A DNA stretch of 64,000 nucleotides, taken from assembly GCF_963675165.1 (NCBI RefSeq), contig NC_087377.1, positions 6,217,122 through 6,281,121 on the forward strand, in the 5' to 3' direction. Shown here one piece after another: positions 16,449 to 46,002 of the stretch (within the stretch, counting starts at the first letter, position 1; each line of letters opens with the position of its first letter). The notes beneath the pieces are model-generated. The model did no database searches and was not told where the DNA came from. It worked only from the letters and a program-made list of their open reading frames with translations. The stretch is from Halichondria panicea. Its lineage: Eukaryota > Porifera > Demospongiae > Suberitida > Halichondriidae. A program made the translations under genes and the position numbers.

Positions 16449-19400
16449 TCAATGGGGATTTGCATAAACATATGGATCTTCTCCTTTCAATATCTGCTCA
16501 GCAGAATGACGTCCAGATATTACCTTTAGTAAACGAACTCTTCTCAATTTGGATGTTACCTATGAACAGTTTGGGAACATTTTACGACTGCTTCCTTGCG
16601 AAAACATTACATGACATGATACAGTGCGTATGATGACTGTGTTACTGGTTCCCTCCAAGAAACCTCACATTATTATCACGTGACTCGACCCTCGACCACC
16701 TACAGCTAATTTGAAGTCTGCTAAGCGGGTAAGGATTACTACTAACACCACATAATAATTATTATGAAATAACACAGCTTTTTAGTCACGACATCAAGGC
16801 TAAATCACAGGCAAACGGAAACTCAAAGAGTAAGTATATTGATTGTTGTTAAAAACGATTGATGCCACGGCAGAGCCTTGCAGCAGCTACCAATAGCTAG
16901 CGTTCTATAGTGCAGAACTAACTACTAAGTAGAGTAGCAACACTCGGTGAACAAGTTTGCTGCGTACTTTTCAGAAAAGGCTGCAATGACATTCTAAGTA
17001 CGCAAACCAGGCATAACTCGAGAACAAAGCATTATTTTGCAAATCCACAAATTAAAATCCAAGAAAACATGACTAGAAGCCTATAGAAACTCTTACTTGC
17101 ACTTGATTGATCCTTGAGCAGCTGTAGCAGTCTACACACACAAACACACTGCCGTATACCACGCTTGCGCATGCGCACCGAGGCATAATAAACATAGCCC
17201 TTCTATGAAGTCGTGGGAGGTCAAAGCTTGCGGTGTGTCTAAAATACTGCAAACGTTTAGGAACGTGCAGATTATCTACCGTATTACTGGAATGTTTTGC
17301 AAACATCAAACATTTGCGCACTTTGCGATGGTTGATCAATTCGCAACGCAAAACCTATACACATGATCCTTGCCAGCAAAGGGTCAAATTTTCTGTTGAT
17401 TTAGCTCATTCGCAAAGATTTTTCACCAGCAAAATATTCTAGTAATACGGTATAGCTTGAAGCCATTCTATATAGCACTTAGATACATAATCACCAAGTC
17501 AAGCAATGCCCTTTGCTTCACCAGAGAAGTTGACATAGAGTAATTCAAGCTAAACTCAACAAAAAATAAACAGAGTAAAGACAACGGACTTAGAGCTAGT
17601 CAGTGGTGTAAACTTATTTCTCCAGAGTACCTCCCAGCCCCTGAGTGATCGCTAGTGGATAGGAGACAGTTAAATACAACCTCAACCGCGAAAATATTTG
17701 CGAGCACGAAATATAACGCAGAGTGTTTCAACCTACACAAGGATCATTCCCTTCCTATGTATGTACATAACATGTATGCAACTGGTTGTGAACATAACAA
17801 TCTACCTTTAATTCATTCAATAGAACATCCTCATCACACTCCAACAGTACTTCCCCATTTACTCTCTCGGCCATGAATGCTTCTTGGTAAGCTTTCAGAC
17901 CCATTAATTCCAGCAGTTTTAGTACCTGAGAGTAGATGTTAGATCAATGAACTACTAGATCAATGAACTAAAGGGTGCATGTATAGTGCAAGCTGCAGCC
18001 AAATTAAGGTTTCTGGTACATTTGCGTAGTAGTCTGCGTTTGTTTTGATTCTGTTGCACGCCAGCAAAGCAATCAGTGCAAGCAAAACAATCATTGTTTT
18101 GGTGCAGGTGCAATCAAGCTTGTTGACTTACACAAACCGCTACTTGCAATTAAGAGATTGCTACATGTACATGCTTGTGAGTGTAAACAATGGAACCATA
18201 AAACCGCAGCGTAGTACATGCGTAGGCGGAAACAGGCCTTTGCTAAATCAGCGATCTATCAAACGGAACAGAAACTTTATTTTGGCACATGTACCTGCAT
18301 GTAGTCCAACGAGTTCAGAAACTGACGATTTTCTTCACATACACTCTCAGGTATCGAGGCTTGCGACTGCATAGGTGACCTGCCCACCGATTTGACGGGG
18401 GATAGATGTTCTACTGTAGCCAGTTTTTGAAGTGGTGCAGCAGGTCTACAGTGTTAATATCTATGCACGTGAATTGATCTGCTTCTAGTATACCGTAGAA
18501 ACTGGATTATTAGCGCTTACTCGACTATAAGGGTATCTTTATTTGAAGCGCATGCTCAACTGCAGGCTTTTTATACTCAAATTGAAGCGTTTTTCCAATT
18601 ATGCGAAGGTTATTAGTGAAATTTTAGAATTGATTCAGCTAATTTTATTTATATCTATGTAGTTAGCTTGTACAGTGCATGATAGCTATATAGCTGGTGA
18701 TATCCATCTGTAAGGACTCCCTGGGCATGCTGTTACCTCGTTTGATCATGTTGAGACATGGATGAGGTCCTAGTTCCTGGTCAATATGAATGTTTAATAT
18801 GAATTTAAATGATCTGTAAAATGAACTGTAACATAATAGTATGATATAGATCCAGTTGGGTTGCCTGCTTGCCCTTGCTTGCTCACTTTCTAGCCAGCTC
18901 TCATCACAGAGACATCCGGTTGCTGGGTGAGGCTCGAAATGACTGCATTATAGGCGCATTCTCGAATATAAGCGTAGAGAACTCACCCTAAAAGCGCATG
19001 CGCTAATAATCCAGTTTCTACGGTAGGCTCAAAACAATGTGTACCAGCCATAAAACATCAGGCACTCACATGACATCATAAATGCCCCCACCCAGGGCCT
19101 GTTCAGTGACGGTCTCATCACTGCCAATAGAGGTTGAGCCTATAGGGGTGTAGACTAGGGGTCCCTTCTTCTGATCACTTAATGACCTCACTTGTTCACA
19201 AAGACCAGTCAGAATGCCTTGCATAGAGAGCACTTTCGTTGCTGTACATAAGTAATGACAAACAGCACTGGTGATGATGGAACCGCTTACAGATTTCCAA
19301 CAAGTGCTTTTTTAGTTCAACAGTATCCTCCAATGCTCTTCCAGTTCGTGACTCAAGCCTTTTCATGTCAGCTCTGGCAGACGTGATTTGACGGGAAACT

Positions 19401-22400
19401 TGAGTACTGTTTTCTTCAGTTTTCAACTGCTTTAGAGTTTCTTCAATTGTCCTTAAACGTTGATCCTTTTAGGTGTTTAGACTTATGCACACATGACATT
19501 GTATGTGTGTCATTGTATGTGTGTGTGTACGTGTGCATTTGAAGCGACACTCACCATTTTGGAATCAGATGCATCAGTAGAAACGGAGTCCAAAGAAGGT
19601 TCCATCTGGTAAATAGCTTCAATCGTTGACTTAGTTGGACTACTAATGCTACCATTTGCAGCATTCCTTTGTTCGTGAATGTTGTAGTATATTGCTGGAG
19701 GCTTTACAATGTCAATCCCTGAGAAGCAAGTGAAGCAACAGTATGATGCTATACATACATCTATAGTGTTGACTAGAAAACTAAATTTATTGTCGCACAC
19801 ACATCATGTGTTACCTGACAATGCATTGTCCTCTCTCATCACCGCAATACTGTACACGTTGCTGGAGGCGTTGTACTGTGTGACCTTGCCTGGGTTATAG
19901 TGCTCTAAGAGTGTGCGTGTGTCAGAATACAGCTGCTCCGTGTCCTCTGGACGCTTGTAATTAAGCACTTGGAGCTGCAAAACAATTTAAGCATTGCTGG
20001 AGTACAGTATGAAGGTGATTGAACAAGCAAATCGCAATCTATATCATTATAAGTGTCAAAATAGAACCAGTTATAATAACTGCATCACTAAATTTTCATG
20101 AGACAAAAAATTACCTCAATATCCAAATCGAGGGGTATATCAAACATAGGGGCATCTGTGAAGTCATCTACTTCAGTGTTAGTAGCGATAAGCGAGGTCT
20201 CAATGTTGCTCTCGGTGAGAGACACTACAGCTGTTACGAGGTGTTTCGGTAACTCTGACGCAGTATCCGAATGAACAAACAGCATTGCCTGACAAGGAAT
20301 TGCATTGGGCATGTGCTCAACAATATCTGACAAGAAGAAGCGAACATCATACGGCCGTGTGCTGAATTTACCTGGGGATGAGAGATACACATGAACAACA
20401 TGTTTTTTATCAACTGACTAATTCTACACCATCTTGCTTCTCAAAAACATGTACATGTAGTGTTAACTCTACAGAAATTGAGCGTTACTGTAGAGTGCAA
20501 AATTTCAAAACACTTAAAATTCGTGGCCTCTAAAAACATTTCGTTGAATACATTTTGTGGGTTGACTTGCTTGCTGGCAGCACTTCCGGGCCACACCTTT
20601 AATCTTTGCACGTTTTATAGCAGATACCGTACAGTGGAAAATGTTTGCGGGTCCACTATTTGGCCTTAGCAGAATTTTTTTGTGGAATATAATATTTGCG
20701 GTTCAATGCCAGAAAACCACACCCACCAATAGCTTTGCATATGAAATACCAGTGAATGGGAGTTTATCTCGGTTCGTTAACTGCTCTACCCTCGAATAAC
20801 GCGACATTTTGCAATTCACGAAAATTTCCAGCTATATATACGGTATAACTATGTACAATTTTCGTGGAATTAACTTTCGTGTAGGATATATTGCTAACCC
20901 ACGAAAACTGCGAAAATTTCGGTATTTTTTGATACGTAGAGCACATTACAGAAGGACCCAGTCACTTTGTACAGAAAAAGTTTGCTAGACTTAGACTAAC
21001 ACATGCTAGGCGTTTTGTTTTTGCAGTAGCGAGTCTTATTGGGGTTCTTAGAAGAGAGAGCTTACTACCAGGCCTATAGCTAGCTAGCTAGCTAGCTGTA
21101 GCTTTTCACTTTTATTGACTTGTGCTTGGTAAAAATGCACTGTCAGCTCAATTAGCACTCGCCCGCAGACCCACTTAGCAGTTTTGCATATAAGGTCATG
21201 CTTTGCAAACTTGCACGAGATTCGATTCCCGAGGTAAGACGCTCCATCTGTAATGTGCTCCTGGTACCGCCTACTATAGAGGTTACAACTGAAGTTTTAC
21301 AGCTCGCATTTTTTTGTGTCGCCCTCTGCACCTAGGTATCTATCTATACATCTACATGCATGTACAAGCCAAAAAAATTGCGTATGACGTACTATACCAC
21401 CGCTGTTTGCTAGTGGTGCCAAAAGTAGACCCATGCTTGGGGTTTTGGGAGAGAGATGTTATTATAACTGAATCTTATTATACATTCTTACACACAGTAA
21501 TTTTAGCGTTTTCAGATCTTTCTCTGTTTTTAGGGTACTAATTTTGGTGGATTTGTAGCAAATTCATTATTACCACTCACAAGTATGAGTTTTAAGAAAG
21601 TTTGAAGTCAGATACAGATGAAAAAAGGGCTAGCTTGTTAGCATACATTACATTATACCAAAGTACATAAAAAAAGATAATTTAAGATAATATTATTCAT
21701 TTTAATCGCGTTTTATTATTAGCGAATGCTTGTTTAGAGTTAATTACAAATTTGCTAAAATTAGTTACCCATTTATAATAGTAACAATAAGGTACGTAGT
21801 ACCGTACCCTCGCGAAAATACGCCCACCCTTTTCTGCAAGAAGTCTAGGCTTATTAGGGGACTGGGCGTTTAATCGCGAACGGTAGGTTTTCATTCGAAT
21901 ATACGCCCACCCGCGGCCTCAAATCGAGGTTTTTATTTAATGTATTTTCATTTTAATACATAGTGTGAACATTTCATTGACAACAACAATGTTATAAACT
22001 AATGCTGAGTATGATTAAAGCATGACAAGAGAATGAACATGAAGAAGTGGACTCTTGACTCTATTCGTTGCTTGTCACTTGTGTCGATGTCAGATGTAGC
22101 AGAAACTTCCCAAAGGATGGTAGGTCATACTCTTACAGAGCAGCTATCTATCAGGTACTTTGTTTCAGAAAACCAAGGCAAGGTTACCAGCAAAATTGGC
22201 CTGTGTGATAATTTCTTGGACTTTGTGTTTTCTTTTCTCTGAAAGAAGAAAATTGATTCTTCCAGGATCTGTAGTTCAGTGTATAATTTTAATATCTAAG
22301 AAGAAAAGACTTGTGTACATGTTATCTTATATATGGTAGTGTTTTGTGGCTTACCAGGCCCTCAAGAAAAATATGATTCTGCCAGGAGGATTTGTGTCCA

Positions 22401-25400
22401 AAGAGATCAATTTCACAAATGGCTACTGCACTGCTAGCTAGCTGTTTTAACTGAGTCTTGTAGCTCACAAAAAGCTAGCGCTTTAGTGCAAGGCTAATTC
22501 ATTATGTTGAATAGAAAGTTTGTACGGACAGATGATGCTATGAAAGATTCTGAAGAGACTGCAACAGCCTTCAATGTGAGTCAAACTAGCCATAACTCGA
22601 GAAAGAAGCTTTAGTTTGCTAATCCACGAATCAAAATCCAAGAGAACGTGGCTAGAAGCCTATAGAAGCTGTTAGCTTTCGTCGCATTGCAACCGTTCAG
22701 CAGTTACAGCTAGAACACGCACGCACGCGCGCGCACACACACACACACACACAGTCAGCTTTACCGTATCCCTCGTGCGGCCGCCTCGAGGCATAATAAG
22801 TGAGCAGTCTTCTCCCACACATTACATACAAAATCATGTTTCCTACGACTCATTTAATTTCCATGTATCTTACATTCAGTATCATTTGGGTCTTTCCCCC
22901 CTCGTAAAAGCAGGGGATAATTATATTTATTACACATCATTACACACTCACAGAGTTTAAAATATCAAAACTTCTATCGGCTATCACAATCTAACAAGCT
23001 CGGTGAGATACTTGTCACTTACACGCCCCCCCCCCCCCTCCAACTTGAAAGGGTTTAATACATCAAAAGATAATTGCTAAACATGTTACAGAACAGAACC
23101 ATTATATAGAAAAAGACACCAACATTGTACTTACAGACCAGAATAATACTTTACAAACATTGTCATTGCTGTGAAACTTAAACTTGGATATTCAATAACT
23201 TGTAGCGCCCTTCCAGCTGTTCTTGCATTTTCTGTCCGGCCGGGGATCGTTAAATCAGTTTGTGTTGCTGTGCCATTTTCTAGTTTCATGTCTTCTTGTG
23301 CTCGAGTAGGACCAACATGACTTTGACCATCAAGTGAGAGGAGCAGTCTGTTCCAGTAAAAACACTGTACTTTTCAGGTCTCTCCAAATATAGGGATAAG
23401 AAGCCACCTCTTCTCTCTTCGTAAGATTATACTCTTGCTTTTAGGAGTCCTGTACTGTAAAATAAGACGCCTTTATCTTGTCCGGAGCGCTTGGAACATC
23501 TTAAAACTCGGCAGCTAGCTATATAAACAGAGTTCAGCTGTACTCCAAAATGGTAGACAAGTTGATTTTCACATGACTGTGACGTCACATGAAAACGCTC
23601 TATAATGGCTAGATCTACTAAAATAGCAAGCTTCGCTCCTTCTGACTCTTGTAGCTAACAAAAAGCTAGCGCTTTTAAATTAGTGCAAGGCTAACTTATA
23701 AGTTGAATAGAAAGTTTGTGCGAACAGATGATGCTGCGAAAATTCTAAAGAGACTGCAACAGCCTTCAATGTGAGTCAAACTAGCCATAACTCGAGAAAG
23801 AAGATTTAGTTTGCTAATGCACGAATCAAAATCCAACAGAACGTGGCTAGAAGCCTATAGAAGCGCAACCATTGAGCAGTTACAGCTGGAACAGACACAC
23901 AGACACACACAGTCAGCTTTACCGTATCCCTCGTGCGGCTACGCCTCGAGGCATAATTATTAGCATCCATATGAGTACACTCAGATATCACAAAAAACAG
24001 ACAAACTAGAGCACCAGAGCACTGGAGTACACACTACAGGATCAATAGAAAGGGACAGGGTGGCAGTGGAGAATCAAACCTTGAAATCATCAGTGGAGGG
24101 CTATAGAGCAATGCTTTTCTGGTGCTACTGGAGAATTTTTAGACATTGATAAGAAAGTGAGTTTACACGATATGAACAAAACCGTCCTTTCCAGGATACA
24201 CTTGCATGACACGTGCAATAGGCCATTCTAAAAAGGTTGCAATGGCACTCCAAGTATGCATAACTCGAGAACGAAGCATTATTTTGCAAATCCACGAATG
24301 AAAACATGACTAGAAACCTATACTTGCACTCCATTGATCGTTGAGTACCTGTAGCAGTCTACACACACACACAAACACACTACCGTATACCTCGCTTGCA
24401 CATGCGCACCGCGTACCGAGGCATAATCATCACTTTTCAATCCTCTGTAACTTCTCTATACTACACTTCCTGTTCTTTTTACATGAAAGTTAATGAAATT
24501 TCAAACTGTCTGCTTGAGATAGCCACCACTAGAAAAGGAGCACTTTCAACAGAAAAACCTGTCAGATAAGAGTGAAAGTAGGCTGCAAACTTAGCTTTTA
24601 CTTGTTTTATAGAAGATGGCATGCACTCTCTATAAAAAAAAAAGAATACCGTAAGACCTCGATTTAAGGCGACCCTCCAAATATGCAACACCCAGGAGCT
24701 TCAGCAATTTTCTGACCTCTAAAAGTAGCGACAGCTGCGTTGACAATTATTTTTTAATGTCGCGTTCTAAATAGAGGTAAATGTAGCCACTCCCTAGCCT
24801 CGATTGTAGCCCACTGGAAAATCAAGTGTTTTTAAGCAGCCTGAAATCGAGGCAAGTAGACTCTGTAAAGTTACCTCCAATTAGATGCGACCCTCTAAAT
24901 ATGCGACACCAGGACTTCAATATAATTTGTCAATCTCCAAAAGAAGCGATCTCTGGCTTTGTAATTATTGAAAAGTGTCGTTTTAAATCGAGATCTTACG
25001 GTAGTAACGTTTTAAGCTTACATAAGTTGGAGAAATCAAATTAGTGACCTTAAAAGACAAAGCTAATTGTAACCCACTGCCTTTCACTATAATTATGGTT
25101 GTGTTCTATGGTTTCCGCCAAGGAGTGGCTTCAAAATTAATGTTGCATGGAATAACTAACGTTGGAATAATTATACCTATTACGTATAATTTTTTATACA
25201 GGGTAAAAGAAATAGCTTCTACAAATCTAATTACTATTTCTGTGATGGATATACAAGAACATGAAATCGTATGAACATTCGACTATAAAAATGATAAAAA
25301 TACATCATTTCGAAGCTAAATTAATGCATGCATATAATTATAGGTTTTCGATATGTAATTAGTTTCTGTTGTCTAGGCTAATACTGTATTGTGTGCATAC

Positions 25401-28400
25401 ATTGCAAATACTGACGGCCGAATGGTTCAGCTTACACGGAATTGCCCATGCTACAGTACACGAGCTTAATACACTCCATAGTATCAGGGCACATCGTGGT
25501 ACAGATAACAATGATCCGAGTAAATTTGAATTCCAAATTCCATGAAAAATGCTAACAATTACTATACTAGTACTATGGTCCACAGACTGGCACAAAAATT
25601 GTGGCTTAAGGTTTCTTTGGACCACGGTAAAATTTCTTATAATGATCACTACCTATCTTATAAAGTTTCTTATAATGATCATAATGATCACTACCTATCA
25701 TAAAGTTTATCGACATGAAATAACGGAGTGTACATGTATATAAGCTATACATACGTACAGTATGTACGTGCTAATGCATGTTAAACGTTAGTCTTGGTAA
25801 TACTCATGTAGACATACGTGCTAGTACGACAAAAACAAAACATTCACTCTTAACATAGGGAGGTATGATAAACACACACAATAATAATGAAAACAAAACA
25901 CAATTCAAACCGCTAAGTGCTTGCTAACATCTTTCATTGTACGTATAAAAATGACATAAGCGGGTACTTTTCGGGGGAAATATACGTGGTTCAGCAATAA
26001 TAATTATTATTATTTAGATATTTCGTGGATAATATTTTCGTGGTTGCTGATTGCACTGTAGGTAAAGGTAGTCAAGGTCGCTTCATCCGTGGGTAAATAT
26101 TCGTGTGGCGAGAGCTTCAACACGAATATTTTCCCCCCGAAAATTACCGGTATTCGGTATTTAGATCAAACGCGTTATCAGCCATACATGTACAGAGCAC
26201 TTCACAATTACAAACAAGGAATGTGATTAAGGTTAGGTATTGTGGTCACTCGTGAATATTCATGAGTTTTACTCTGTCAGCTTTTTCTCTTTTGCAGGGT
26301 TCAAAGAAGTCTGCTGTGCTTACGAATGTAAATTCTATTGCTATTGTAAAAATGTAATGATTATAAAGATGCATGAATGAGACAAGAGGGCATCAAAACC
26401 GCAACTAACCTTAATCACATATGGACTATTTTTTACGTCAATTTATAAGAGCAGTAAGTAGCAAGCTTTATCGGTATCTATATGTAGCTAAGTACCTTCC
26501 AGTAGGCTCGCAAGCCACTCCCTTTTCTCTGATTGGACGGGGGCGGGAGAAAAGGGACTGGTGACTCTGGGCTACAGCTTCTGTCTCTACCAGAATTTGG
26601 GTAGAGATTATTCATTGATTTTTCCACGTGTTCCAAAAATTGCGTGAGGTTAAGTAGAATTGCGTAGCCTGCAAAAGTGATCACGGGCTTCTACAGTTTG
26701 AGAATGGATGCTAGTGCTAGAAAAGAGAAGATGATGGAGTAATAACGACATCAGGCATTCAGCTAGGATATAGTCATCTAAGACACCAGCAGAGATTAGC
26801 TGTGTTTCTGTTTTACGTGATGAGAACTGGCAGCCGAAAATCAGTGTGTTATTGGTTGCCTAAAGCTTTTTATTAACCTGTACAATACAAGACAGATAAT
26901 GGCAGAGGGCAGCAGTTGAATTGAGAGTAGTCAGACTTGTACAAGCTGTCTTAAATCGCTGCCACTCCTCGATTCAAAGAAGGACTGCCAAGATTTCTAC
27001 GTTCATCAGCTGTTCCATGCTAATCCACAAGTTGTGGCACAACAGACACTGGTACAAGGATCTATAATATCAAAAGGCTGGCTAGATAGATCTGTATACT
27101 TGTCTTCTGTGTACATATGTACTTGTCTTTAGCTTTTGACGCATCAGAATAAATTGGATAATTTGCACGTGACATTAATATTTAATAGCATTCCTGATTT
27201 ACACAAGCTGTAGCCCAGAGTCACCAGTCCCTGTTCTCCCGCCCCCGTCCAATCAGAGAAAAGGGAGTGGCTTGCGAGTCTAACCTTCCAGAGGGCCAGA
27301 CGAAGAGATATCCGTTGTAAAAGTTCTTACGCGAGAGAAAAAGCTAAGAGTATACGGTAAGTATCTAAAAATACACATGAACAGAGAGCTAGCAACAATT
27401 TCTCTTCGTCTGGCCCTGCCCCTACCTTTCTTTATCCACGCTAAAAATTAAACTCCAGTACAACTTGCCTGCTAACGAAATGATATTCATACTCCACAAT
27501 AATATTTATATATATATATTATACCTAATTCTGCATAATTCCTGAAACGTGACATACAAATAGGTTTTGTGAGACGCGATGCAGTATTAGTTGACTCGCG
27601 CTAAAGCAATAACCAGTACATGTATGCAATGCAATCCACATGCATACACACCTACACAACTCTCCGGTAACTCTTTTTTCTTCCCGGTAGCAAGGTTATA
27701 CACTTTGAGAGTCTTGGTGTTCAGCCGTTTCTTGATTCCTTTGATCAAAAGCACTTCACCACTCTCAATAGTAGAGCTGGCACCAGATCCTCTCCAAGCT
27801 GCTCCAGTTCTCACTGCACATGGCATACTCTTGGCTGCCAGAAGTTCCGACACTTTCTCGAATACAAAGCCATTCTGAAATGCAATTTTTGTTAGAAACG
27901 TGTTAAGCACGGGATAAGTAGATGCTATACAATACCATAATTATACTTGTGGAGAAAGCCTATAACGTTGGGTACTTACTAGTGCTTGGTCTCTTTTTTG
28001 ATTTGGATCGTACATAATGCCAAACTCGAGGGCTGAGTTCAAAGGGATTTTGTAGATAGCTCCACCTCCATCAAGCATGTGCACCACCTGCAGGAGGAAG
28101 ATACATGTGTACATGCATGTATGACATTATGAATATCCCCATGAACCAGAAAAGTCTAAGGTTAAGTAGTTCTACTGACCAGTTGCAAGCTACATTTGTA
28201 TACTATCAGTGTTTGCTAGCAGAGGAGGTTGGCCACGCGTTATCAATCATGTGACATTCCTAAGGTCTCTGCTCACGTTACCATAGATATCGAATAACTG
28301 TAATAAAAAAGTTTTGCTGACTTGTAACACCGGACTAGCTGTACCTGTTGTCTGACTGGAACAAGATTATAGCTAGACTATAGGGTAGAGTATAGTTTAG

Positions 28401-32250: not shown

Positions 32251-32254
32251 TATT

Positions 32255-34058: not shown

Positions 34059-35996
34059 CTATCGGTAGCTGTGTTACTGCTGTCAGATACAGCTCAATAT
34101 AATAATAACGTTCAACCAGAGATAAAGGAAGGAAAGGATTGGCAACGGATTGGCAACGGTTGAAAAAATGTGATTATCCGTGATGCGCTACGTCATCGAC
34201 TTTTTTTAATCTTTTGTAGCCTCCATTTATAGCTAAAAAAACATGCTTATGAAAATCATAATCAAGAATTTATGCAGCCTAATCGATCAACTTAAAAGGG
34301 GCACAAACTAATATAGACACTTTCTCGTCTTTTACAGCCTCCATTTTAGCATTTTGGTAAAAACATACAGGAAATGTATGCAGCCCAGTTCGTCAACATA
34401 GACACAAATAAGCAGGATCCGTAGGCAAAACATCATAATTATGGCTACGGCAGTGCTTCTTAAAAGGGGGCACAGACCAATAATAACTAGTTTTCAAGCT
34501 CTAGAGACAATCAATTCTTCCACGCTTGGACTTCACTTTAAATAATGCACAGGACACGTGTAGCCTTCTATACGCAATTCTATGGTCTCATGAGACTAAT
34601 AGCTGACTAAAAGTAATATTATTTCATTTCGCGGGCGTTGTGCCAGGAAATAATGCGCATCAAGGATGGTTGAGAGGAAATCAATATGAAATCAATGTGA
34701 AATGATCACGTGAGTTACTCCCGTTGCCAATCCCTCTATTACTCTATCTCTGGTTCGGCTAACTTCGTTTTATATCTATGAGCTAGCTAGCTGCCTTGTA
34801 CAGTGCATAGAGGACTGCACTCATCGTTAAACATCTAAGGGCCTCGAGAGACTTGCCAATACTGACCTCCAGATGTGTGCCCCTTCAGGCTTGCACAGTT
34901 GCACAGTTGCAGCCCCTTGTTTCTTTGTTTCTTTTATGCAAGTTATCCTGTGAGTCTGTGCCTGTAAGGCTCCCAATTGAGATGGACAAAGGAGCCTGCA
35001 AAGGAGCCTGCAAAGAGGCTTTGCTAAGTATGTACATGTATGTACATGTATGTAGGCTCCTCTATGCACTGGGCCACGCCCAACTATGCAGATGACGTCG
35101 CTAATAAGAGGTGTAGTTTCCGGTCAACCCAATTCCGGCGCTTCACGCCTTTTTTATTTATGAAAGCACCCCCGAACATTGCTTGTAGGCTAACGCATAA
35201 ATTCGGGTTTTTTCGCATTGGTAATTGGAAGTCTTCACCAAGCAATTCTCCGTACCATCACAAGGGGGGGGGGGGCAGCCTTGAATTTTCCTCGTTTGTC
35301 TTGGCCACAGATGACAAGAGGGCCTTACTATATGGTTTAAGATTGCTTTTGCATTGTGGGTTCCACTGTTCACTCAACCAAAGCAAATTAAGCCTTGGCT
35401 CAGCTTTTCTGTATATATGCTCGATCAGAGGCCGCACTCAAATAGGTGCCTCCCTTGCTAGCAAAATGAAACATTTAGTAGCCGGCCGCTCTCAAATAGT
35501 AGCCTCAGTGAACTTTGGCTCTAGTATATCTGCATGTGGCAACCAAAACATTATTAATACAAGCAGCTTGCTACAGGTAGCAGCTTGTTAGTGCTTCATA
35601 AAGACTTTCTCATGGCAGAGTTCTATAGTTTATGCAGGTGAAAGTAACAAACTAAAGGTTGTTGAATTATAATTATATAGCTATAGCTAATAAATGCCGC
35701 TCTTGAACAGTACCCTCTCTCGAATTGTAGCCTCCTCTTCCAGCAAAATGAATCATTTAGTAGCCGCGGCTCCGGTAGTTCCCAAGTCCACATTCATGTA
35801 AATGCTTCATCTCAGCATCTAATGTCTGAAGAAAGTTTCCAATTAAAGACAGCACTGTTACTTCCAGTTGTTGACAAGCATGCACGCCACGTTGCTTAGC
35901 ACACACAATGAATATCATACAAGATTTGTGAGGGTACTCTTAATTTTCCGAATCACTTCGAGGGTGAACTTGCCCATCCAATAGCTGAGATAATTT
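34059..35996. other. Repeat-rich intergenic DNA
   Basis: No gene recognised. Short repeated words such as AGCAAAATGAAACATTTAGTAGCC (35460, 35740) and GGAGCCTGCAAAG (34992-35015) recur, and TGTACATG tandem words lie at 35030-35050. A 183-codon frame at 35040-35591 is built from these repeats and is not called. Confidence 0.4.
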
Positions 35997-36368
35997 ATGG
36001 CAGAGACATTTCACTGGACCATGATCATGCTATCACTTTGTCTATTGAGAGTCCATTCCTCCCACACGCAAATCCCCCATTCAGTGGATGCCTTGGTGCT
36101 AGTAGGTATAGCTGATGCTCTCAGTGAAGACTCTTGCTCATCAGAAACAGGGAATGCAAACTGTTCAGCCATCGCAATACAGCTTAAATCTAGCTATAGT
36201 TCAAATGGTTTCAAACCTGTTTTTCAGCATGCACATGGTGGGTCTCGTGAGGTGTGTCCCGTGATCAGCAATAAAACAGCAATAACGAGTGTTGCAAGCT
36301 GCGCTGTGCTAATGGCTCTCGCCATGTTATGCTTTCGCTCTAAGTGTTATAGTAGGGGCCGGTTTTAG
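35997..36368 (+). CDS. Small open frame, possible membrane peptide (uncertain)
   Basis: 123 codons from ATG at 35997. The N-terminus is hydrophobic (MLSLCLLRVH), there are several Cys, and a hydrophobic stretch near the C-terminus (SVASCAVLMALAMLCF) is followed by basic residues. The last 30 codons have a counterpart at about 48010-48090, read in the same sense (SAASCAVLIPLAMLCNIIKC), and both are followed by an R2 repeat. It could be a real small membrane protein, an exon of a larger gene, or a frame within a repeat. I do not recognise a family. Confidence 0.25.
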   Translation: MAETFHWTMIMLSLCLLRVHSSHTQIPHSVDALVLVGIADALSEDSCSSETGNANCSAIAIQLKSSYSSNGFKPVFQHAHGGSREVCPVISNKTAITSVASCAVLMALAMLCFRSKCYSRGRF

Positions 36369-36524
36369 GTTTTCTATAATGCATTAAAATTTGATCTATC
36401 TATAAAAATATAACTGAGAAAAAAAGAAACTGAGAATTAGAATTAGAAAACACTTGTGTACATGCATCTCTATTGAATAAGCTTTTTTTTCTACAATGAT
36501 TAAAATTTAGACCTGTGTACATAT

Positions 36525-37060
36525 GCATCTATTGTATATGTATTTTGTGGCTTACCAGGACGATCAAGAAAGATGAAAATTGATTCTGCGGACAAAATGG
36601 ATTGTCTCACACGTGGGAATGAGCGCGCATGCGCAATTTTAGATCCACTGAAAAAAGGGGTGTGTCTGCAAGAGGTCAAGTTCACAAAATTAATGGCTAT
36701 TATAATTATAGCTAGCTGCTCTTTCTGACTCTTGTTGCTACTAAAAAGCTAGCGCTTTAGTGCAAGGCTAACTCCAATAGAAACTTTGTGCGAAGAAATT
36801 ATGCTAAAAAGATTCTGAGGAGACTGCTTCAATGTGTGTAAAACTAGCCAACTCGAGAAAGAAGCTTTAGTTTGCTAATCCACAAATCAAAATCCAAAAG
36901 AACATGGCTAGAAACCTATAGAAGCTGTTAGTTTTCGTCACATTGCAACCGTACGCGTTGAGCAGTTACAGCTGGAACAGACACACAGACATGCAAACTG
37001 ATACACACACGATCAGCTTTACTGTATCCCTCGTGCGGCTACGCCTCGAGGCATAATAAG
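36525..37060 (+). repeat. R2 repeat, copy 3
   Basis: Starts near ATTTTGTGGCTTACCAGGAC and ends CGGCTACGCCTCGAGGCATAAT-like, with AAAAGCTAGCGCTTTAGTGC inside. Resemblance to 48180-48645 extends upstream to about 36270 / 47990. Confidence 0.82.
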
Positions 37061-37522
37061 TGTTCAGACAACACCACACCATGTAGGTTATTACTCATGC
37101 ATGCACGAGGGATGCAACTCGAGCCCGAGGGAAAGAGTTATAAAATTATAATAATTATTATTAGCAGCACAGCACGAGGACATGACGTAATATTTTCAAG
37201 CATCATTCCTTAAGATTGCAGGATTCTACCAGACTGCATTAGGATTCGCCACGTGTCAATGCACTCCAGTTTGCAATGCATGCAAACTAACAGGGTGGTT
37301 GGTGGTGCTTTAGGTTGCATCATCCCACATCATATTAATTAGCTATTAAAAGTAGATTGAATTCTGGGTATGAATAATTATTATTTGCATCGTTATACAA
37401 AGCCTCGATCCAGTATAGAATATTAATGACATCATTATTTTATAGTGTAGCTGCATTCGAAATAATTGTGTGGTAGGATTACCATTGGCAAAAACACTAA
37501 CAAAATGATACTTCCTTACAGA

Positions 37523-40500
37523 ATGGACCACGATCATGGAAAGTCTCCCTTTAAGCATTGTGATATGGGAAAAGCACAACATCACGATACACACCACAGT
37601 AATGTGCGTGTGCTCTCAAAGCCAGTGAGATCTGAACATATCACCAGCAATTCTTCCCAGATTCAGCTAAACAATGAATCGCTGACTTGCCAACAAAGAT
37701 GTGATAAAAAAAGCCAAAATACAAGTCGTCCAAACACACATTCATTTCGCAGTGAGTTCAGTGCAAGCACTCCAACGTTGAACAAGATTGATCGCAATGA
37801 TATCAGACCTAGTGTATTGTTTAGCAACCCACAGAGTCACATTGACGTTAACTACCCCACTAGTTTGATGAAATGTTCACTTGAAGATATTATACATGTA
37901 CGTGAACATGTGCCAATACCAGTCCAAATACCAACTATTCCTGCAGCAAGTTTGCAAGTAGTCAAGTCAAGCGAACTTGAGAACATCAGCAGTCACAGTA
38001 ACAAAGTGAGAAATTCTGCTCCAGATGCTTTTCCCCTTCAATCTCAATATGGTATAACAAATTATCACTCGAAATCTGCAGTACCAGTTAACCTAAAATT
38101 GAACACTTCACCACAGCCAATGACCAAGAAGAAATTTAGCACTCAGTTATCATTGAATGAAAACTCGTCCAGAAAATGGTCAAACACCGGAATACAATCT
38201 TTAGAATCACAGTCTCAATCAATTAGCTCAATGCGAGGATTTACTGTAAACTTGCCATCAAGGAAACAGTCTTCAGTATCTTCGGAAGAGAATGTAGATA
38301 TCGATGAATTGTCTTACAATGGGGAAGAAATAGACAGTCCTTTTGTGAGTGCTGCATTCGATGATGCAATCTCTACTCCTTCAAATTGTGCTACAGAACC
38401 TGTACAATTTACCAAGTTGAAGTCATATCCAAAACTGCTGTCAACATTCATTTCGAATACTCCCACACTTCCTTGTAAGGTTAGGATCATCAAGGGAACA
38501 CTTTATCCTTCAAATGCGGTAGCAATCTCTAGTGGTCATGACCTGGAAATCCATTTCATCAAGCACAGTAAAGCCTTTTCCGTGCAAGATGCTAGTGGAA
38601 ATTTTTTTGTAATTCCATTTAATTCCTCGATCAAAGTGTCGGTCATATATAATCCATCCAATCCTGTAAAGTTCGTACAATACCGTAAAGAATTCAAGTT
38701 CAGATCAGCAGGTGACATCATGAAATTGAAAACCATTCCTCTTGTTGTAGCTGCTACAAAAGCGTATACTGGAGAAACCATAAAATCGAGTGTTAACAAA
38801 AGACAGATACTAGTGATCAAAGGAATCAAGACAAGCTCGACCAAAGGATACCAACTAATGGCAAAGACACTGAGTGGTGCCAAGAAACTTTTATCAGCTG
38901 AATGCATTGGGAACTTTTCAACAGCTCCAACTTTGATTTGCATGTCGCTGAAAGAATTTTTGAAGTGTAAAATCACACTGCCACAACAGGTTTTTTTGGA
39001 TTATCCAGCAAGTTCCCAGAAAATTAAAAATCTTCCTTCTGTCATTACCATTATGGAGCGAACCAATGGCTCGTCAATAATTGCAACTTGCCCTTCTCTA
39101 GCAAATGAATCCAAAGTGCTTGAAATTCCTTTTTCGTCTTCATTGGTAGTACAAGAAATAGAGAATGCCAAAACCAATTATACAACCGACTGTCTTTACG
39201 AATCATTTGATGCCTGTACAGTTGCACATTGCTCAGAATCACCACAGAGAGTGTGTCATCATGATATTCAAAACACATTCTACAAGTGCTTGAGTAGCAC
39301 ACATCGATCACTAGGTTGGGAAATTTCCAACCCAGAAGCCTTAAATACAAAACAACACCCCGTTAAGTTTGAAAACACAGATTTGACTCAAAAACAATTG
39401 CCACAAGCTGATACACCGATATGTGGTAAGAGTAGTAGCGAAGACAATACAAAGAGGTGTAATCCATCCGTTCTAAACAGTTACCATAGCTGTGACTTTG
39501 TACATGAAAGTGATACACGACAAATCACTGCAAACATTGGGTCAAGTGTCACAGCTCTTCATGCGGAGCCGATGGAGCAAACTTTCTCTGGGGACTCAAC
39601 CAAGGCAACTATAATGGAAGTTAAGAAAGTAATGAGTTGCAAAAAGAAGAGTGTTCCTCCTTCACCCATCAATGAAACTTACACAAAGATGGAGGACAAT
39701 GAAGACAAATGGGCCAACAACACTGTAATGGGAATTCCAGAAATCAACAATCATGATGATGACACCACAATGAATGTAGTTGTAAGCAATGTGGAGAAAG
39801 TATCTTCTGAATCAAATGAAAGTAGGTCCACACCTGTCACTCTTAAAAAAAGCGAACATTCAAGGAATCAAGAAGGCTCATTGAATGTTTCAAACAGCAA
39901 ATCTGCAACTGGATACTTTGGCACCAGGTTGAGCAAAGCGAAAACAAGAATTGGCCAATTCCTACACACCAGTAGTCGAATCGTTTCAAGAAATTCACCT
40001 ATGCCTAAACTGATCACTGCTACCAGTGAATTTAATCCTGAACATGAAGCAGAAGTGCCGCCTAAACAAACATTGGCAGCTAGTACAGCAGTACAAAAAG
40101 ACTCAGAGAAGACGTCACCTGTACCTTCAATGGCACTTCCACTTAAAGCTCAGAAAACTATTAATGTGTCCAAACAGGATGTAATCAACAACTCACCTGA
40201 AAACTATAGTCGTTGTTCTATGCAAAGAGACTTGAAGGATGTTGTGGATTCAAATGATCACCATGTTCTGGGTACTATTTCAACTGTTGCCCCAGCCACC
40301 ACCGCAAAAGTCCCCACTAGAGACCAACACCAAAAACCCCCTCTGGCACCTAAACCAGAAAATTACATAAAGAAAACGAAGCAAGCTACACCGAACTTAG
40401 TACTAGGCAGCAAACTTCAACATAAAGATTCGAAACCAGCTAACCAAGACCTAGCAAAAGTCCCCACTAGAGACCAACACCAAAAACCCCCTCTGGCACC

Positions 40501-40780
40501 TAAACCAGAAAATTACATAAAGAAAACGAAGCAAGCTACACCGAACTTAGTACTAGGCAGCAAACTTCAACATAAAGATTCGAAACCAGCTAACCAAGAC
40601 CTAGTTAACAGTTCAACAAAACTTTCAATGCCAAGCACACATAAAGATAACAATACCAGTATCAACTGGAATGAATCATCAGGTGAAACAGAAGATTTGG
40701 ATGCTATTGTAGACAGCATTGCCAACTGGTGTCTACAGATAGAAGATGAAGTTAACCAACTCTCACATGGACTACAATGA
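37523..40780 (+). CDS. Gene C: single-exon CABIT-domain protein without SAM
   Basis: An uninterrupted frame of 1085 residues from ATG 37523 to TGA 40780; an in-frame ATG at 37505 is an alternative. The first 300 residues are Ser/Asn/Thr-rich and low in structure. Residues about 303-560 form a CABIT domain matching A and B: LPCKVRIIKGTLYP, HDLEIHFIKH, FFVIPFNSSIKVSVIYNP, ATKAYTGETIKS, ILVIKGIK, and the core LLSAECIGNFSTAP. The C-terminal 500 residues are disordered-like, with SH3-ligand motifs KPPLAPKP in a perfect 50-residue tandem duplication, and end in an acidic helix-like segment (EDLDAIVDSIANWCLQIEDE). No SAM domain is present. CABIT proteins are cytoplasmic signalling adaptors; partners here are unknown. 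An acceptor-like CTTCCTTACAG lies just before 37523, so a non-coding 5' exon is possible. Confidence 0.85.
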   Translation: MDHDHGKSPFKHCDMGKAQHHDTHHSNVRVLSKPVRSEHITSNSSQIQLNNESLTCQQRCDKKSQNTSRPNTHSFRSEFSASTPTLNKIDRNDIRPSVLFSNPQSHIDVNYPTSLMKCSLEDIIHVREHVPIPVQIPTIPAASLQVVKSSELENISSHSNKVRNSAPDAFPLQSQYGITNYHSKSAVPVNLKLNTSPQPMTKKKFSTQLSLNENSSRKWSNTGIQSLESQSQSISSMRGFTVNLPSRKQSSVSSEENVDIDELSYNGEEIDSPFVSAAFDDAISTPSNCATEPVQFTKLKSYPKLLSTFISNTPTLPCKVRIIKGTLYPSNAVAISSGHDLEIHFIKHSKAFSVQDASGNFFVIPFNSSIKVSVIYNPSNPVKFVQYRKEFKFRSAGDIMKLKTIPLVVAATKAYTGETIKSSVNKRQILVIKGIKTSSTKGYQLMAKTLSGAKKLLSAECIGNFSTAPTLICMSLKEFLKCKITLPQQVFLDYPASSQKIKNLPSVITIMERTNGSSIIATCPSLANESKVLEIPFSSSLVVQEIENAKTNYTTDCLYESFDACTVAHCSESPQRVCHHDIQNTFYKCLSSTHRSLGWEISNPEALNTKQHPVKFENTDLTQKQLPQADTPICGKSSSEDNTKRCNPSVLNSYHSCDFVHESDTRQITANIGSSVTALHAEPMEQTFSGDSTKATIMEVKKVMSCKKKSVPPSPINETYTKMEDNEDKWANNTVMGIPEINNHDDDTTMNVVVSNVEKVSSESNESRSTPVTLKKSEHSRNQEGSLNVSNSKSATGYFGTRLSKAKTRIGQFLHTSSRIVSRNSPMPKLITATSEFNPEHEAEVPPKQTLAASTAVQKDSEKTSPVPSMALPLKAQKTINVSKQDVINNSPENYSRCSMQRDLKDVVDSNDHHVLGTISTVAPATTAKVPTRDQHQKPPLAPKPENYIKKTKQATPNLVLGSKLQHKDSKPANQDLAKVPTRDQHQKPPLAPKPENYIKKTKQATPNLVLGSKLQHKDSKPANQDLVNSSTKLSMPSTHKDNNTSINWNESSGETEDLDAIVDSIANWCLQIEDEVNQLSHGLQ
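40304..40603 (+). repeat. Perfect 150-base tandem duplication inside gene C
   Basis: Units 40304-40453 and 40454-40603 read identically, each coding 50 residues with PTRDQHQKPPLAPKPENY. The length is a multiple of three, so the frame is kept and the SH3-ligand motif is doubled. Complete identity suggests a recent event or copy-number polymorphism. Confidence 0.95.
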
Positions 40781-40854
40781 ATATGCACGGCATAACTTCT
40801 ATTAGTGGCTGTTATTATTATTGAAAAATGTTTCTAAATATATAATTTTGTAAA

Positions 40855-40860
40855 AATAAA
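40855..40860 (+). promoter_or_regulatory. Polyadenylation signal of gene C
   Basis: AATAAA 75 bases after the stop codon of gene C, within the 205-base gap to the converging gene B. Confidence 0.6.
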
Positions 40861-40985
40861 TTGCAGGTCTATATTGATCTTTACCAGCAATAATAATTAT
40901 TATAATTATATAAGTTTAATTTGCTCAGCAAACAGAACATTCAACACAGGACATAATTATTTTAGACACATAACTGCTTAGCAAC

Positions 40986-43900
40986 CTAGCAACAGAGAGG
41001 TTGCATGATTACGTAATCTTGATTTGACATCATGTCAGCTACACAATATTGTCCGGTTATAACTCGCTGAAGTCGCAGACGGTGCAACCTAGATTTAACT
41101 TCCAGTTCATTCTGCAGTATGTCCTCATCACAGTCGCTGAGAATGTCGCCATTGATGTGCTGTTGGCGAAAAGTGTCCACATACTGCTGAAGGTTCATAA
41201 CTTCCAGCAACTTCAGTACCTGAGAAAATAAGAACATTCCCATGACATGCAGTGAATAATTACAATTATACATACAGTGAAACCCAGAGCTATGGCACAA
41301 ATTGAGAACACTGTATGCACTGATAACTCGCCAGAATAGAGGGGATCGGGTTGGTTAACGAAAGTTTTATATCAAAAGAAGCCAGAGAGGCACATAAAGT
41401 TTGCCTTCAGTCTCTAATGACCGTGCAACATCAGCTAGAAGTTTACATAGAACTCATTGTCAATTTTTGTGTCAGCTCAGCCAAAAAAAGTGGTGCACGT
41501 GATCGTGTCCAACCTCCTCTGATGTATACATGATTTGTACTCAGTACCAGAGTAGGAATGCCAGGTCAATAGGGTCAAAATGATTAAATGAACTCTTGTC
41601 TGGGTTCTTGACCTTTGATGCATACAGCAGCTAACGCTTCTTGATTGTTTATTCAAGCTTACTATACCCAAGGGTATATAAAAAGAGAGAGGGCAGCAAA
41701 AACTAAAGGGGGCGGTGGAAAAGTACCGTAACATCAATCAGTAATAGATTTTTGTGTACAGTATGTAGTATATCCGGTCTGTGGCTTTAGTTTTTGCTCG
41801 CATGTAGGGTTGATAGTCAGTTGCATGCCCTCTCTCTTTTTATACGACCTTGCTATACCTAGATCTTCCCAGTGCAGCAAACTAGTACATCAAAATTTAT
41901 ACCCTAGCCGCAGAAGGTATAATCTTGTGGTTTCGAAGAATGCAATAAAAGGTCAAAGGTTGCAGCTAAGCTCAACCGATTTCTGTAGTGATTATAAAGC
42001 GGATCAAGCTAGTGGTGGTGTATAAACCCAGGGGTGCGAGGGTGAACTCAGTTTTACATGTACAAGATAAGGCCACATGCATGGTGTTTTAAATGAATGA
42101 CCCTGGCATTCCTCCTCTGACTCAGTACAGTAGACATAATAAATTATAATTTGTACAATTTCTATTCCAACACTCGAATTCAGGAAAATAATGGCAAAGG
42201 AAAGAAAGTACAGGCTGTACAATGTATGTGTAATCTCTCTCCCTTTTCAACTGTAAGATAAACGACTAGTTACATACATATGTACATCAATTTGATTCTG
42301 AAAGTAAACTAACATCTAAAACTACCAATGGGTTGCTTAGAAGCCAAACATCACCTGATGTGATGTTAACCACACATATCGTTACTTATAAACAGGAGAT
42401 ATGAATACCACTATATACAGTAACATGATAGCACTGCCAAGAATGCAAAAATATCAGACCACAGGAAACATGCTATGAATTATCACCCGACTCTATGGGC
42501 TGTACTGCAACACCCCAAAATAATGGTTGTGGTAGCTATTGTCTAGTGCATTAGGTTGATTAACATGACCTAAAATGTAACAATAAGAAACAAGAATATC
42601 ATGTGCAAAAGTTGTCTCTGTCGCATGAAAGCCTCATTCACCTTTTATGTACATACATGTACGACACATAACTCAACATGTAGCCTTTGCTAAAATTCCT
42701 ACCACAGCATTTTGAACCTACATGTACATGTATCACAGACTGCACTGTACAAAGGTATTTACAGGACATTACGTAACACAAGTACAGGTTTCGCCACAAT
42801 TGCACATGATTCTTGTCACATGCTATAAGATGACCTCTATATAGTATACTAAACAGGGTCCAGGGCTGCATCCAGGATTTTGGATCAAGGGGGGCGAATT
42901 GGGCGATTTAAAAATGTAGAAGGGGCAAAGTCATCAGAATTATAGCAGTGCAAATGAATCTGCCAGATCCTAGGGGGGGGGGGATTACCCCCCTCAATGC
43001 AGCCCTGGGGTCTCTTTGTGTACACATAGTGATCAATACTCGTATACCTACATGTACATGTTTATATACTGTAGCACATCACAACAGCATCGGCCAACCC
43101 TCTCCCCAGCATGAAAAGCTTTTGTTATGCAGTTATGCAGTGAAGCAGTAAGTCCCCTGAATCTAAACTAACAATCAATAGTTTTACCTGTGAATTATCC
43201 ATAGCTTTTAGGAAGAGTTTATTCCTCTCCATAGCTTCAGGTGATGTAGGTGTTGCCTGTTGGTCTGTTGTGCTTTGCACGCTGCCATCAGCTGAGTTAC
43301 CAGCACTGGAGCCACCTTCTGAGAAAAGAAAAGTACAGCACTATTACAGAACCAGCCAACAAGTTGTACTACCCTAACCCACGTTAAACAACACAACCAT
43401 GCAAAGACATCCATCTGTTTGATCAAAGGGTATATGCAAAACCCTGAGTATACCACCTGTACACTTTTATACTCTGCCTGTGTTCTCAAACCCACATCAT
43501 ACGAGCAACTACATGTGTTCTAGGCCACAACAAAGTGAAACCATTAAAATCAATGCCTAAGGATTTTATATTATAGCAAAACTAATGTGCACACCTGATA
43601 TGGTGGAAAAAGAACTGCCTTTCTCCACCAGACAAGATTCCAGGTCTTTGGTCATTTGGTCCAAATCATCCATTATGTTGGTGAACATGAGGCTATCTGG
43701 CCGGGCAGGAGCACTGACTTGTCTGTGCACATGCTCACCAACAGAGAATCCATTTGATAAACGGGCCTCTTTCTTGCGAGCCTCCACAATACCACCGTCA
43801 CTCCCTGCTGAGGAAACAGTGACAGATAGTAAATTACACAATATCAATAATAATTTCAAAAAAGTGGAGTTGTTGGCAACTCATCACCCACAATGGTACA

Positions 43901-46002
43901 TGTACATATAAATATACAAGCAGCACTATAGCTTATAAAAAATTATACCAGTAGGTCTTTCTGAAGCAGTGCCCCTTCTAGAAGTAACACACGCTCCACC
44001 GCTCCCTGTGCTGCCAAAAGAACTCATGTCAGGAATAGTGGAGTCTGGAGCTGAGCTTGACAACGAAGATACTGCAAGGAAACAACATACACATGTTCTT
44101 ATGACATCTACACAAAAATGTACTGTATACATGTAAAAGTTCTCAAGAGAACACAGACATTGCACCTACAGTTACGTGAAGAGTTACAAATGGCGATTAT
44201 GGTTCAATACCCAAACCTAATACATGTATATGGGTACATCACCCTCCACATGTGTGCTTGATGCAGTAGTCGTACACACCTTGTTCACTTGCTTGAGCAG
44301 GTCCTCTCTTACTCTCATCGGGCACGGCAGCCCTGGTTGTGCGAGGGTGAGAATCCACATAACTGTAACCAGTGGAACGCCTGGGAGGATTACTGGCCTG
44401 CATGCATAAAGACACCAATGTAAGTGATGTTTTACAGGTGACTTATATACACATGCACATCCAAATGACTATTACACTCGCAGCTAGTGGTGACACATAC
44501 ATTTACATGTACCATGAGTACAGTGTACGTGCTAAGTAAACCTCCCCAATATACTGCACTGTATTAATAATACGCTACACAAACAGCTGCTGTATAAACA
44601 TGCAACACCATTATGAAGCCATTATGAAGCCATTATATGTATCACTTGCATCTGTTTTGACTCTTGGTGGAGGAAGAGGTGGTCTCCAGGTGGAATCAGC
44701 TGGTGAGACATCTCGTGAAGATTTTCTTTCCACGACTCCACTTCCACTGTCACCAGGAGAGTTTGTGTCCGGAGGATAATATACACTCTCTATAGGCACA
44801 GGATAACTAGTCTTTTTCACTGCACGTGGATGTTGGTAGTGACTCTCAGTCAAGGTGGGGTTGTGTTCCAGCATAGGAGGTTTATGAACATCAACCCCAT
44901 TTCGCTCTTGGCCGAAACAAACGTTTGTATAAAACTGGGACTGAGTGTGTTGGTTGCTGTTTTCCTTGACATATGTACGCACATTGGCAGGGTTGAAGTG
45001 TTCGTAAATGAAAGACGTGTCTTCATATAGTCTTTGGGTTTCGTCCTCATCGACGTTATCTTCAACGCGAACAAGGATATCAAGTTCAATAGGAATTTCC
45101 AACAAGCGTGCATTCTCAGGATCTTGATCGTGAATACTCGTCGCAACAAGTGAGGTTTCCACACTACTGTGGAGCATTTTGACTACAGTAGGTACTCCAA
45201 GCTTTGAATTTGAACCAGTTCTTTGATGCGTTCCAACTTTTCTTGTTGCATTGTCAGTTGGTGTGCTAAATAGAACAGCTTTGGATGGGAAACAATCGGG
45301 CATATGTTTGAGTATTTCGGGCAGATAGAGGCACACATCACGAGGCTTGGTTGAGAAATTTCCAGTGCAATTGGAACTAAGCACCTTATCTTTTCCTGTT
45401 GTCAAGCTGAAAACTTTCAAACTCTGTTTCCCAAGAATTTTGTTTCGCACTTTTCGAACGATCAACAGCTCATTAGCAGAGATAGAAGAATCAGAAGTAG
45501 ACCCCTGATATCCCTTTCTTGCCCACAGAAGTGTAGGTAAAGTGGCCATTTGCAGCACATCAGATACCTTGTCGAACTTGTACCCAGTCATTGCTTCGTT
45601 AATGTTGTTGTGTGGATTGTAGAGAATCGCAAATGGAATTGCAGAATTAAGTGGTACATTGAACCGAGAGCCATTCTCATACTCAATAGCTATGATGGTA
45701 GTGTACTTGAGAAAGTGAACGTTGAATTGATCGCCATCAGACAAAGAGGATTCTTCGTCACTGCCACAAAACCCTTTACATACACGAACTCGAGTAGGAA
45801 ATTCCTGGTGGTGCTTGCTAAGAAACACGGGAAGTGATATTTTCTCACTGGGAGCTGGAACTGGATCTCTGATATCTCTGTAATCCTTGACCAGAATAGT
45901 TGGTTGATCAGAAGTTGGCACAGGTTTCGAATCTAAGCTTTCCATTCGTTGCATTATCGATACCGGGACTGATCGGTTAAGTGGCAAATACTCTCTATCC
46001 AT
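40986..46002 (-). CDS. Gene B: GAREM-like adaptor, CABIT + SAM
   Basis: Six coding exons (minus): 46002-about 44662, 44397-44280, 44071-43949, 43807-43595, 43318-43188, 41219-40986; about 719 residues. The end of exon 1 is not settled: a phase-compatible GT at 44661 is weak and the GT at 44649 gives the wrong phase. ATG 46002 directly follows an acceptor, so a 5' non-coding exon (perhaps 46337-46244) is likely. CABIT is residues about 55-320: TRVRVCKGFCG, DQFNVHFLKY, FNVPLNSAIPFAILYNP, and the core VLSSNCTGNFSTKPRDVCLY. After it come a proline segment WRPPLPPPRVK (SH3-ligand type), a Ser/Gly-rich linker, and SAM at about 643-700 (VLKLLEVMNLQQYVDTF to HRLRLQRVITG). Closest relative in the window is gene A. 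Inferred role: tyrosine-kinase pathway adaptor. Confidence 0.87.
41307..41524 (+). repeat. Dispersed repeat shared with 28449-28674
   Basis: Second copy, in the intron of gene B just before the SAM exon. It is about 95% identical by eye over the aligned part, in the same orientation relative to the host gene as in gene A but at a non-homologous intron. Confidence 0.8.
42861..43007. mobile_element. MITE with CAGGGCTGCA ends and 5-base duplication
   Basis: 147 bases, ends CAGGGCTGCATCCAGGATTT and CCCCCTCAATGCAGCCCTG, with G-tracts inside. Flanked by GGGTC at 42856-42860 and 43008-43012. Lies in the intron of gene B between its last two exons. Confidence 0.87.

Follow-up and report, generated by a model that had tools for sequence, protein, structure and literature searches.

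The window analysed in this work, that is, the whole stretch of 64,000 nucleotides of contig NC_087377.1, carries within 30 kb three genes, designated A, B and C (Table 1), that encode proteins with a CABIT domain. In the explanation that we favor overall, and hold with moderate confidence, they belong to a family that counts at least 13 CABIT genes, they stem from an old tandem duplication and their products would work as adaptors. By analogy with described proteins, A, B and C are most likely GAREM-like tyrosine-kinase adaptors of an old family that is still turning over. Three CABIT-domain genes between positions 16449 and 46002, with the core motifs CVGKF (A), CTGNF (B) and CIGNF (C), had already been proposed in a sequence-only reading, and both points were borne out: all three models are free of stops, the domain was identified by Pfam in A and B and by homology in C, and the core contains a cysteine in every case. 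The model of gene A, rebuilt from the sequence, has GT..AG borders at 14 of 14 introns and that of gene B at five of five; neither frame contains a stop. The start codons are ATGs picked by the analyst, which is a weak point of the models. The Pfam CABIT family (PF12736) matched A with E=6.1e-14 (52.5 bits against a cut-off of 24) and B with E=2.1e-12 (47.5 bits). The SAM_1 family matched both as well (E=4.7e-8 and 4.9e-10, respectively), which confirms the CABIT...SAM layout proposed for these two genes.

Pfam CABIT gave no match at E<=1 with the whole protein of gene C and none at E<=10 with its domain alone. No SAM was found in the gene or downstream of it on its strand, in line with the CABIT-only layout that had been assigned to it. 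BLASTP comparisons linked all three proteins (A-B, E=1e-70; A-C, 2e-26; B-C, 9e-31; the latter two over about 250-280 residues), which upholds their common ancestry. Moreover, a leave-one-out profile built from the 12 other CABITs found gene C at E=3.1e-44, with 0 matches reported among 4224 reversed open reading frames (ORFs). Because of the homology to A and B and the profile built without C, it is judged from its sequence that gene C is a CABIT protein by descent, despite the silence of Pfam. A failure of CABIT profiles to match the three proteins had been named as grounds for refutation; Pfam did fail to match C, but the profile of its relatives matched it. A profile of the A, B and C CABITs gave no credible CABIT match in the PDB (best E 0.5), and the structure predictions of the B and C domains, made from two-row alignments of unspliced translations, were unusable (predicted local distance difference test, pLDDT, 33 and 38).

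The extent of the family was determined by searching the assembly (131,455,214 bases, 39 contigs) with eight CABIT protein queries, namely A, B, C, C7:3.767, C8:1.38, C1:6.554, C1:8.67 and most of C15:4.48, where a locus is named by contig and position in Mb. At least 13 intact-looking genes were found, a number that is a lower bound for a six-frame, exon-wise search. "Intact-looking" refers to a CABIT model free of stops and frameshifts; outside the window the CABIT and SAM exons were modelled, not whole genes. The loci returned by the eight queries overlapped and all belonged to one set, to which the last three queries added no gene. Weak matches elsewhere were seen on C12 (E 0.036) and, at E 0.7 or worse, on C3 (twice), C17 and C1:0.77. 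Two further copies, C' of gene C and a copy of B, stand outside the 13; the B copy was kept in the trees and removed for the leave-one-out profiles. Such profiles recovered each of the 13 CABITs at E<=1e-40 and matched no reversed ORF, these scores being biased upward for the spliced CABITs outside the window, which were fitted to the family profile; no splicing was fitted for gene C and the other unspliced CABITs. The core phenylalanine is kept in all 13 genes and the core cysteine in 11.

Several results weigh against the favored explanation. Run over the whole genome, Pfam CABIT matched at gene B only. Among the 13 genes the Pfam cut-off was passed by three (A, B and C1:6.554), C15:4.48, C7:1.26 and C7:3.767 fell below it and the remaining seven were not reported at all, in tallies made on whole ORFs or proteins for some genes and on CABIT models for others. 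The two genes without the core cysteine also speak against it. Taken together, we nevertheless regard the identity of the family and the census of at least 13 genes as highly probable. With only three genes above the cut-off, most of the family would probably go unnoticed in a Pfam-based annotation.

In 11 of the 13 genes, the CABIT is followed downstream by a SAM exon of the same strand. It is absent in C and was not found after C7:1.26 within the fetched 5.7 kb. The combination of CABIT and SAM is therefore the standard layout, and the idea that each copy differs in architecture, offered earlier as a mark of the cluster, did not survive. In the 11 genes and in the B copy, the first codon of the SAM exon stands directly after an AG, at the same SAM residue. 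This AG is a phase-0 acceptor, placed within a full gene model for A and B only. Its shared position argues for one ancestral CABIT-SAM gene. For genes outside the window, the two domains were linked by their strand and proximity and not by transcripts. Introns inside the CABIT are absent in B, C, C7:1.26, C7:3.767, C7:3.780 and C8:1.38 and number up to five in the others; one position, after ..TK|V, is common to A, C1:1.23, C1:6.554 and C1:8.67. A single clade of the intronless CABITs was rejected, at a borderline value of the approximately unbiased test (p-AU 0.052). In gene A, the core (CVG|KF) is interrupted by an intron of 7.3 kb (27651-20372). The introns of the A CABIT were reproduced by spliced alignment with a profile that contained A, so this is no independent check. 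An intron within the B CABIT, proposed by the aligner, was rejected, as the exon stays open over its whole length and the split sits at an insertion.

The resemblance to GAREM raises the question of whether the SAM was acquired once. An ancestral CABIT protein might have gained a SARM1- or liprin-like SAM independently of vertebrate GAREM, in which case the layout would be convergent; we consider this possible but rather unlikely. A profile of the family SAM, made from 10 of the 11 SAMs (that of C1:6.554, split over two exons, was omitted), gave, among solved structures, much stronger matches for TIR-1/SARM1 (E=4.7e-13) and liprin-beta (8e-11) than for 2dkz (1.6e-4), which ranked 26th of 62 distinct sequences. 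2dkz is the SAM of LOC64762, which we take to be GAREM1. The SAM of gene B alone did not match 2dkz at E<=1. However, 2dkz used as a query itself prefers SARM1 after itself (E=0.031), hence divergence of the GAREM SAM may lie behind the ranking, and 2dkz was the best SAM match for the whole protein A (E=0.073).

Local duplication is evident. When 13 genes were placed at random 20,000 times, three of them fell within 30 kb in a fraction of 5e-5 of the trials, and no trial reached the five pairs observed within 30 kb (mean 0.037). Moreover, eight of the 13 genes lie on C1, which makes up 13.8% of the assembly (binomial 8.8e-5). The tests assume independence of the genes, an assumption that tandem duplicates violate. 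The local expansion suggested earlier thus stands as clustering beyond chance, but the family is spread over C1, C7, C8 and C15, with two more tandem groups, and A and C are each at least as near to C1:8.67 as to their neighbours in the cluster. The SAM of A is nearest to that of C1:8.67, with 60% identity vs 47% to that of B, while its CABIT is 38% identical to both; the CABIT of C is 33% identical to that of C1:8.67 vs 28% to those of A and B. Identities among the three CABITs of the cluster are 28-38%, no higher than those to paralogues elsewhere (20-46% family-wide, the B copy aside), so by sequence the cluster looks old, not a fresh burst. The trees of the CABIT and of the CABIT with SAM resolved three pairs only: B with its copy, C1:1.23 with C15:4.48 and C7:3.767 with C7:3.780. 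An A, B and C clade was neither recovered nor rejected (p-AU 0.24). It was dropped as a proven clade, as this value points neither way.

These relationships bear on the proposal that A, B and C make up a functional unit, namely an immune-type adaptor locus of recent, lineage-specific origin in which the copies act together. The clustering beyond chance would suit it, as would the recent duplication and decay of a part of the cluster, which is seen in fast-turnover gene families. The proposal is improbable, however, as the three CABITs are no closer to each other than to genes elsewhere and the trees give the clade no support. Three neighbouring ORFs scanned with Pfam yielded NIDO, a sub-threshold VWD and C8-3_MUC4, a sample too small to show that immune genes are absent nearby. 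These domains lie in exons at 49116-53078 on the plus strand of the window (NIDO, E=3.9e-18; EGF-like cysteine patterns were added by eye), which by their sequence probably belong to a mucin-4/nidogen-like extracellular gene.

The old family reading includes continuing turnover. At a distance of about 1 Mb and in inverted orientation, a block was found whose pieces match window positions 38029-42841 and 45033-46063; it is divided between C1:5.224 and C1:5.266-5.269, the two parts being about 41 kb apart on the 18-Mb contig. In C', which covers most of C, the 742 codons that align include four in-frame stops, and of its 35 indels, 27 are out of frame; this copy of C, at C1:5.27, is dead. Between C and C', 25 synonymous and 43 nonsynonymous differences were counted (omega 0.47; synonymous excess p=0.0035, by a simple count without transition correction). 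This is, as far as such a count allows, about the pattern that constraint on C but not on C' would produce. Exon 1 of B and its copy gave omega 1.13 without synonymous excess in a DNA-guided alignment (1.23 in a protein-guided one, with the same reading), so that no sign of constraint on this exon was seen; the SAM exon is too short for such a test. Turnover is also pointed to by short CABIT fragments next to the genes on C7, at C7:3766201 and C7:3771357. The latter fragment differs little from the beginning of the C7:3.780 CABIT and is a recent partial duplication. A possible THEMIS-type tandem CABIT at C7:3.77 was considered, where these short fragments at 3.766 and 3.771 Mb were seen. A, B and C would have arisen by ancient tandem duplication on the present contig C1, followed by dispersal and by continuing birth and death, in the course of which the block with parts of B and most of C was copied and its C copy decayed. 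A COX1 fragment with two TGA codons, likely a mitochondrial insertion, lies about 12 kb from the decayed block (C1:5280527-5280718); it was the one match of a COX1 search, in which no mitochondrial contig turned up.

It may be asked whether gene C has no function, being a processed retrocopy or a pseudogene in decay. It consists of one exon, lacks the SAM, escapes Pfam CABIT and carries a fresh, exact 150-bp duplication, of which C' seems to hold a single unit, since the aligned pieces fit one copy only. But its 1091 codons stay open, the substitution counts against the dead copy fit constraint on C, and six of the 13 family CABITs are intronless, so a single exon is nothing special; this reading of C is therefore hardly likely. 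It is very improbable that the B/C copy represents an uncollapsed haplotype or an assembly error, for although its synonymous divergence of about 5% is a level that heterozygous haplotypes might reach, the copy lies about 1 Mb off on the same contig, inverted and split, and most of the indels in C' break the frame.

As regards function, an adaptor mechanism is put forward tentatively, with every biochemical step taken over from described members of the family. In the standard layout of A and B, the CABIT would be followed by a disordered, proline-rich, tyrosine-bearing linker and the SAM, the latter being absent in C. The linker could be phosphorylated by receptor tyrosine kinases and recruit Grb2-like SH3/SH2 proteins, SAM self-association could cluster the adaptors, and the CABIT core could bind and damp an SHP-type tyrosine phosphatase, which would lengthen Ras/Erk-type signalling. 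The product of gene C, having no SAM, might bind partners without clustering and act as a modulator. In excerpts of the respective sources, GAREM is tyrosine phosphorylated and bound by Grb2 via its proline-rich region (PMC8086153), the CABIT core of Themis is required for Grb2 association and phosphorylation (PMC3931654), and the CABIT modules of Themis bind the phosphatase domain of SHP-1, which is kept oxidised and inactive (PMC10987373).

Motifs that would serve such a mechanism are present, namely the proline-rich stretches PPPLPPKPP in A, RPPLPPPR in B and PPLAPKP (twice) in C, and the tyrosine motifs YAN at the C-terminus of A (DPYVYANPH, a YxN motif), YVIM at that of B and YTKM in C. 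Their numbers count against the mechanism. The proline-rich stretches are near the shuffled expectation, PxxPx[KR] occurs once in A (0.41 expected) and once in B (0.36), and SH3- and SH2-type motifs are mostly no commoner than in shuffled sequence, the lowest P values among 18 tests being 0.047 and 0.050. In gene C, both PxxPx[KR] matches and one of the two YxxM motifs fall inside the CABIT. Gene A has two matches of the immunoreceptor tyrosine-based inhibitory motif (ITIM) type against 1.48 expected from shuffling, neither of them tied to the GAREM Y453 site. Because they are mostly no commoner than in shuffled sequence, these motifs are leads only.

Table 1. Coordinates of genes A, B and C, their domains and related features in the window, and (in Mb) of the other family members by contig.
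Feature	Position	Strand	Description	Basis
Gene A	16449..30963	minus	15 exons, 710 amino acids, CABIT+SAM	splice sites, open frame, Pfam
Gene A exons 1-8	30963-30849, 30405-30306, 30103-30055, 29509-29450, 29387-29220, 28087-27980, 27874-27652, 20371-20115	minus		
Gene A exons 9-15	19974-19815, 19718-19555, 19465-19291, 19241-19070, 18445-18295, 17925-17806, 16559-16449	minus		
Gene A exon 3	30055..30103	minus	proline-rich TTTPPPLPPKPP, PxxPxK SH3-type motif	
CABIT domain of gene A	20115..29387	minus	four exons	
SAM domain of gene A	16449..17925	minus	chiefly exons 17925-17806 and 16559-16449	Pfam
Gene B	40986..46002	minus	6 exons, 719 amino acids, CABIT+SAM	splice sites, Pfam
Gene B exons	46002-44662, 44397-44280, 44071-43949, 43807-43595, 43318-43188, 41219-40986	minus		
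CABIT domain of gene B	45055..45801	minus	single exon, core CTGNF	Pfam (amino acids 68-235), remainder via alignment to A
SAM exon of gene B	40986..41219	minus	C-terminus QDYVIMQPLCC, YxxM motif	
Gene C	37505..40780	plus	one exon, 1091 codons/amino acids, CABIT only	open frame, homology to A and B
Divergent CABIT domain of gene C	38441..39160	plus	core CIGNF	alignment and family profile; Pfam silent
Exact 150-bp tandem duplication within gene C	40304..40603	plus	unit of 50 amino acids, contains PPLAPKP	
CABIT genes on C1 outside the window	1.23, 5.87, 6.544, 6.554, 8.67			
CABIT genes on C7	1.26, 3.767, 3.780			
CABIT gene on C8	1.38			
CABIT gene on C15	4.48			

Genes C and B stand tail to tail, 205 bp apart. 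The donor of exon 1 of gene B is uncertain, as an 11-bp tandem repeat (44609-44640) at the end of this exon shifts the frame and, near 44610-44640, puts a stop ahead of one candidate donor; therefore the earlier donor AGA|gtcaaa at 44662 was adopted. The repeat may be polymorphic. A 148-nt repeat, 93% identical between its copies in an intron of gene A (28494-28641) and an intron of gene B (41341-41488), is probably a mobile element, and a 126-nt repeat with four copies in and around the genes (16965-17090, 22544-22669, 23739-23864 and 36800-36925; 67-100% identical to the reference copy) is probably a dispersed element. Between genes A and C, a frame of 124 codons on the plus strand (35994-36365) starts in a signal-like manner and becomes hydrophobic over a stretch close to its end. 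By eye, minus-strand ORFs at 10314-13615 look like parts of a retroelement, namely of its gag and integrase.

What is known of CABIT adaptors comes chiefly from THEMIS in T-cell selection and from GAREM in growth-factor signalling, with five genes in mammals. If the genome is that of a sponge, the CABIT-SAM layout would be older than one published account implies, and an animal without lymphocytes would have multiplied it to at least 13 copies. In the excerpted part of PMC3931654, the CABIT domain is described as conserved through protozoa. Among the matches listed in the open-access literature, none for CABIT and sponge is on the domain by title, none for GAREM/FAM59A with non-bilaterian names contains either name, and none for THEMIS, invertebrates and CABIT evolution contains CABIT. 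The size of the family, its near invisibility to Pfam and its turnover form the interesting part of these results; an immune or joint function is putative. It is a speculative and rather doubtful extension that a large, mostly sub-Pfam-threshold CABIT-SAM family under birth and death in an animal without T cells, in which a member lacking the SAM (C) adjoins a complete one (B), reflects a diversification of CABIT adaptors away from THEMIS and T cells. Such adaptors might serve receptors for self/non-self or for microbe sensing, and proteins of the C type might be natural modulators.

Compared with known systems, the three proteins share with THEMIS1/2/3 the CABIT with a cysteine-containing core and a proline-rich stretch, but the excerpt of PMC4082722 gives two consecutive CABITs for THEMIS and names no SAM, whereas A, B and C have one CABIT each. 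The SAMs of SARM1/TIR-1 and the liprins are the best matches of the family SAM among solved structures, although Pfam reported neither TIR nor ankyrin matches for any of the three proteins. GAREM1 and GAREM2 (Fam59a/b), the Grb2-associated regulators of Erk/MAPK, combine one CABIT, a proline-rich region and a SAM, according to the same excerpt (PMC4082722). The GAREM layout, with the CABIT followed by a C-terminal SAM in one gene, is found in A and B and not in C, and A and B also have tyrosines near the C-terminus. The present family differs from GAREM1/2 in that its SAM is not closest to the solved 2dkz SAM, and in its size, 13 genes here as opposed to two in mammals.

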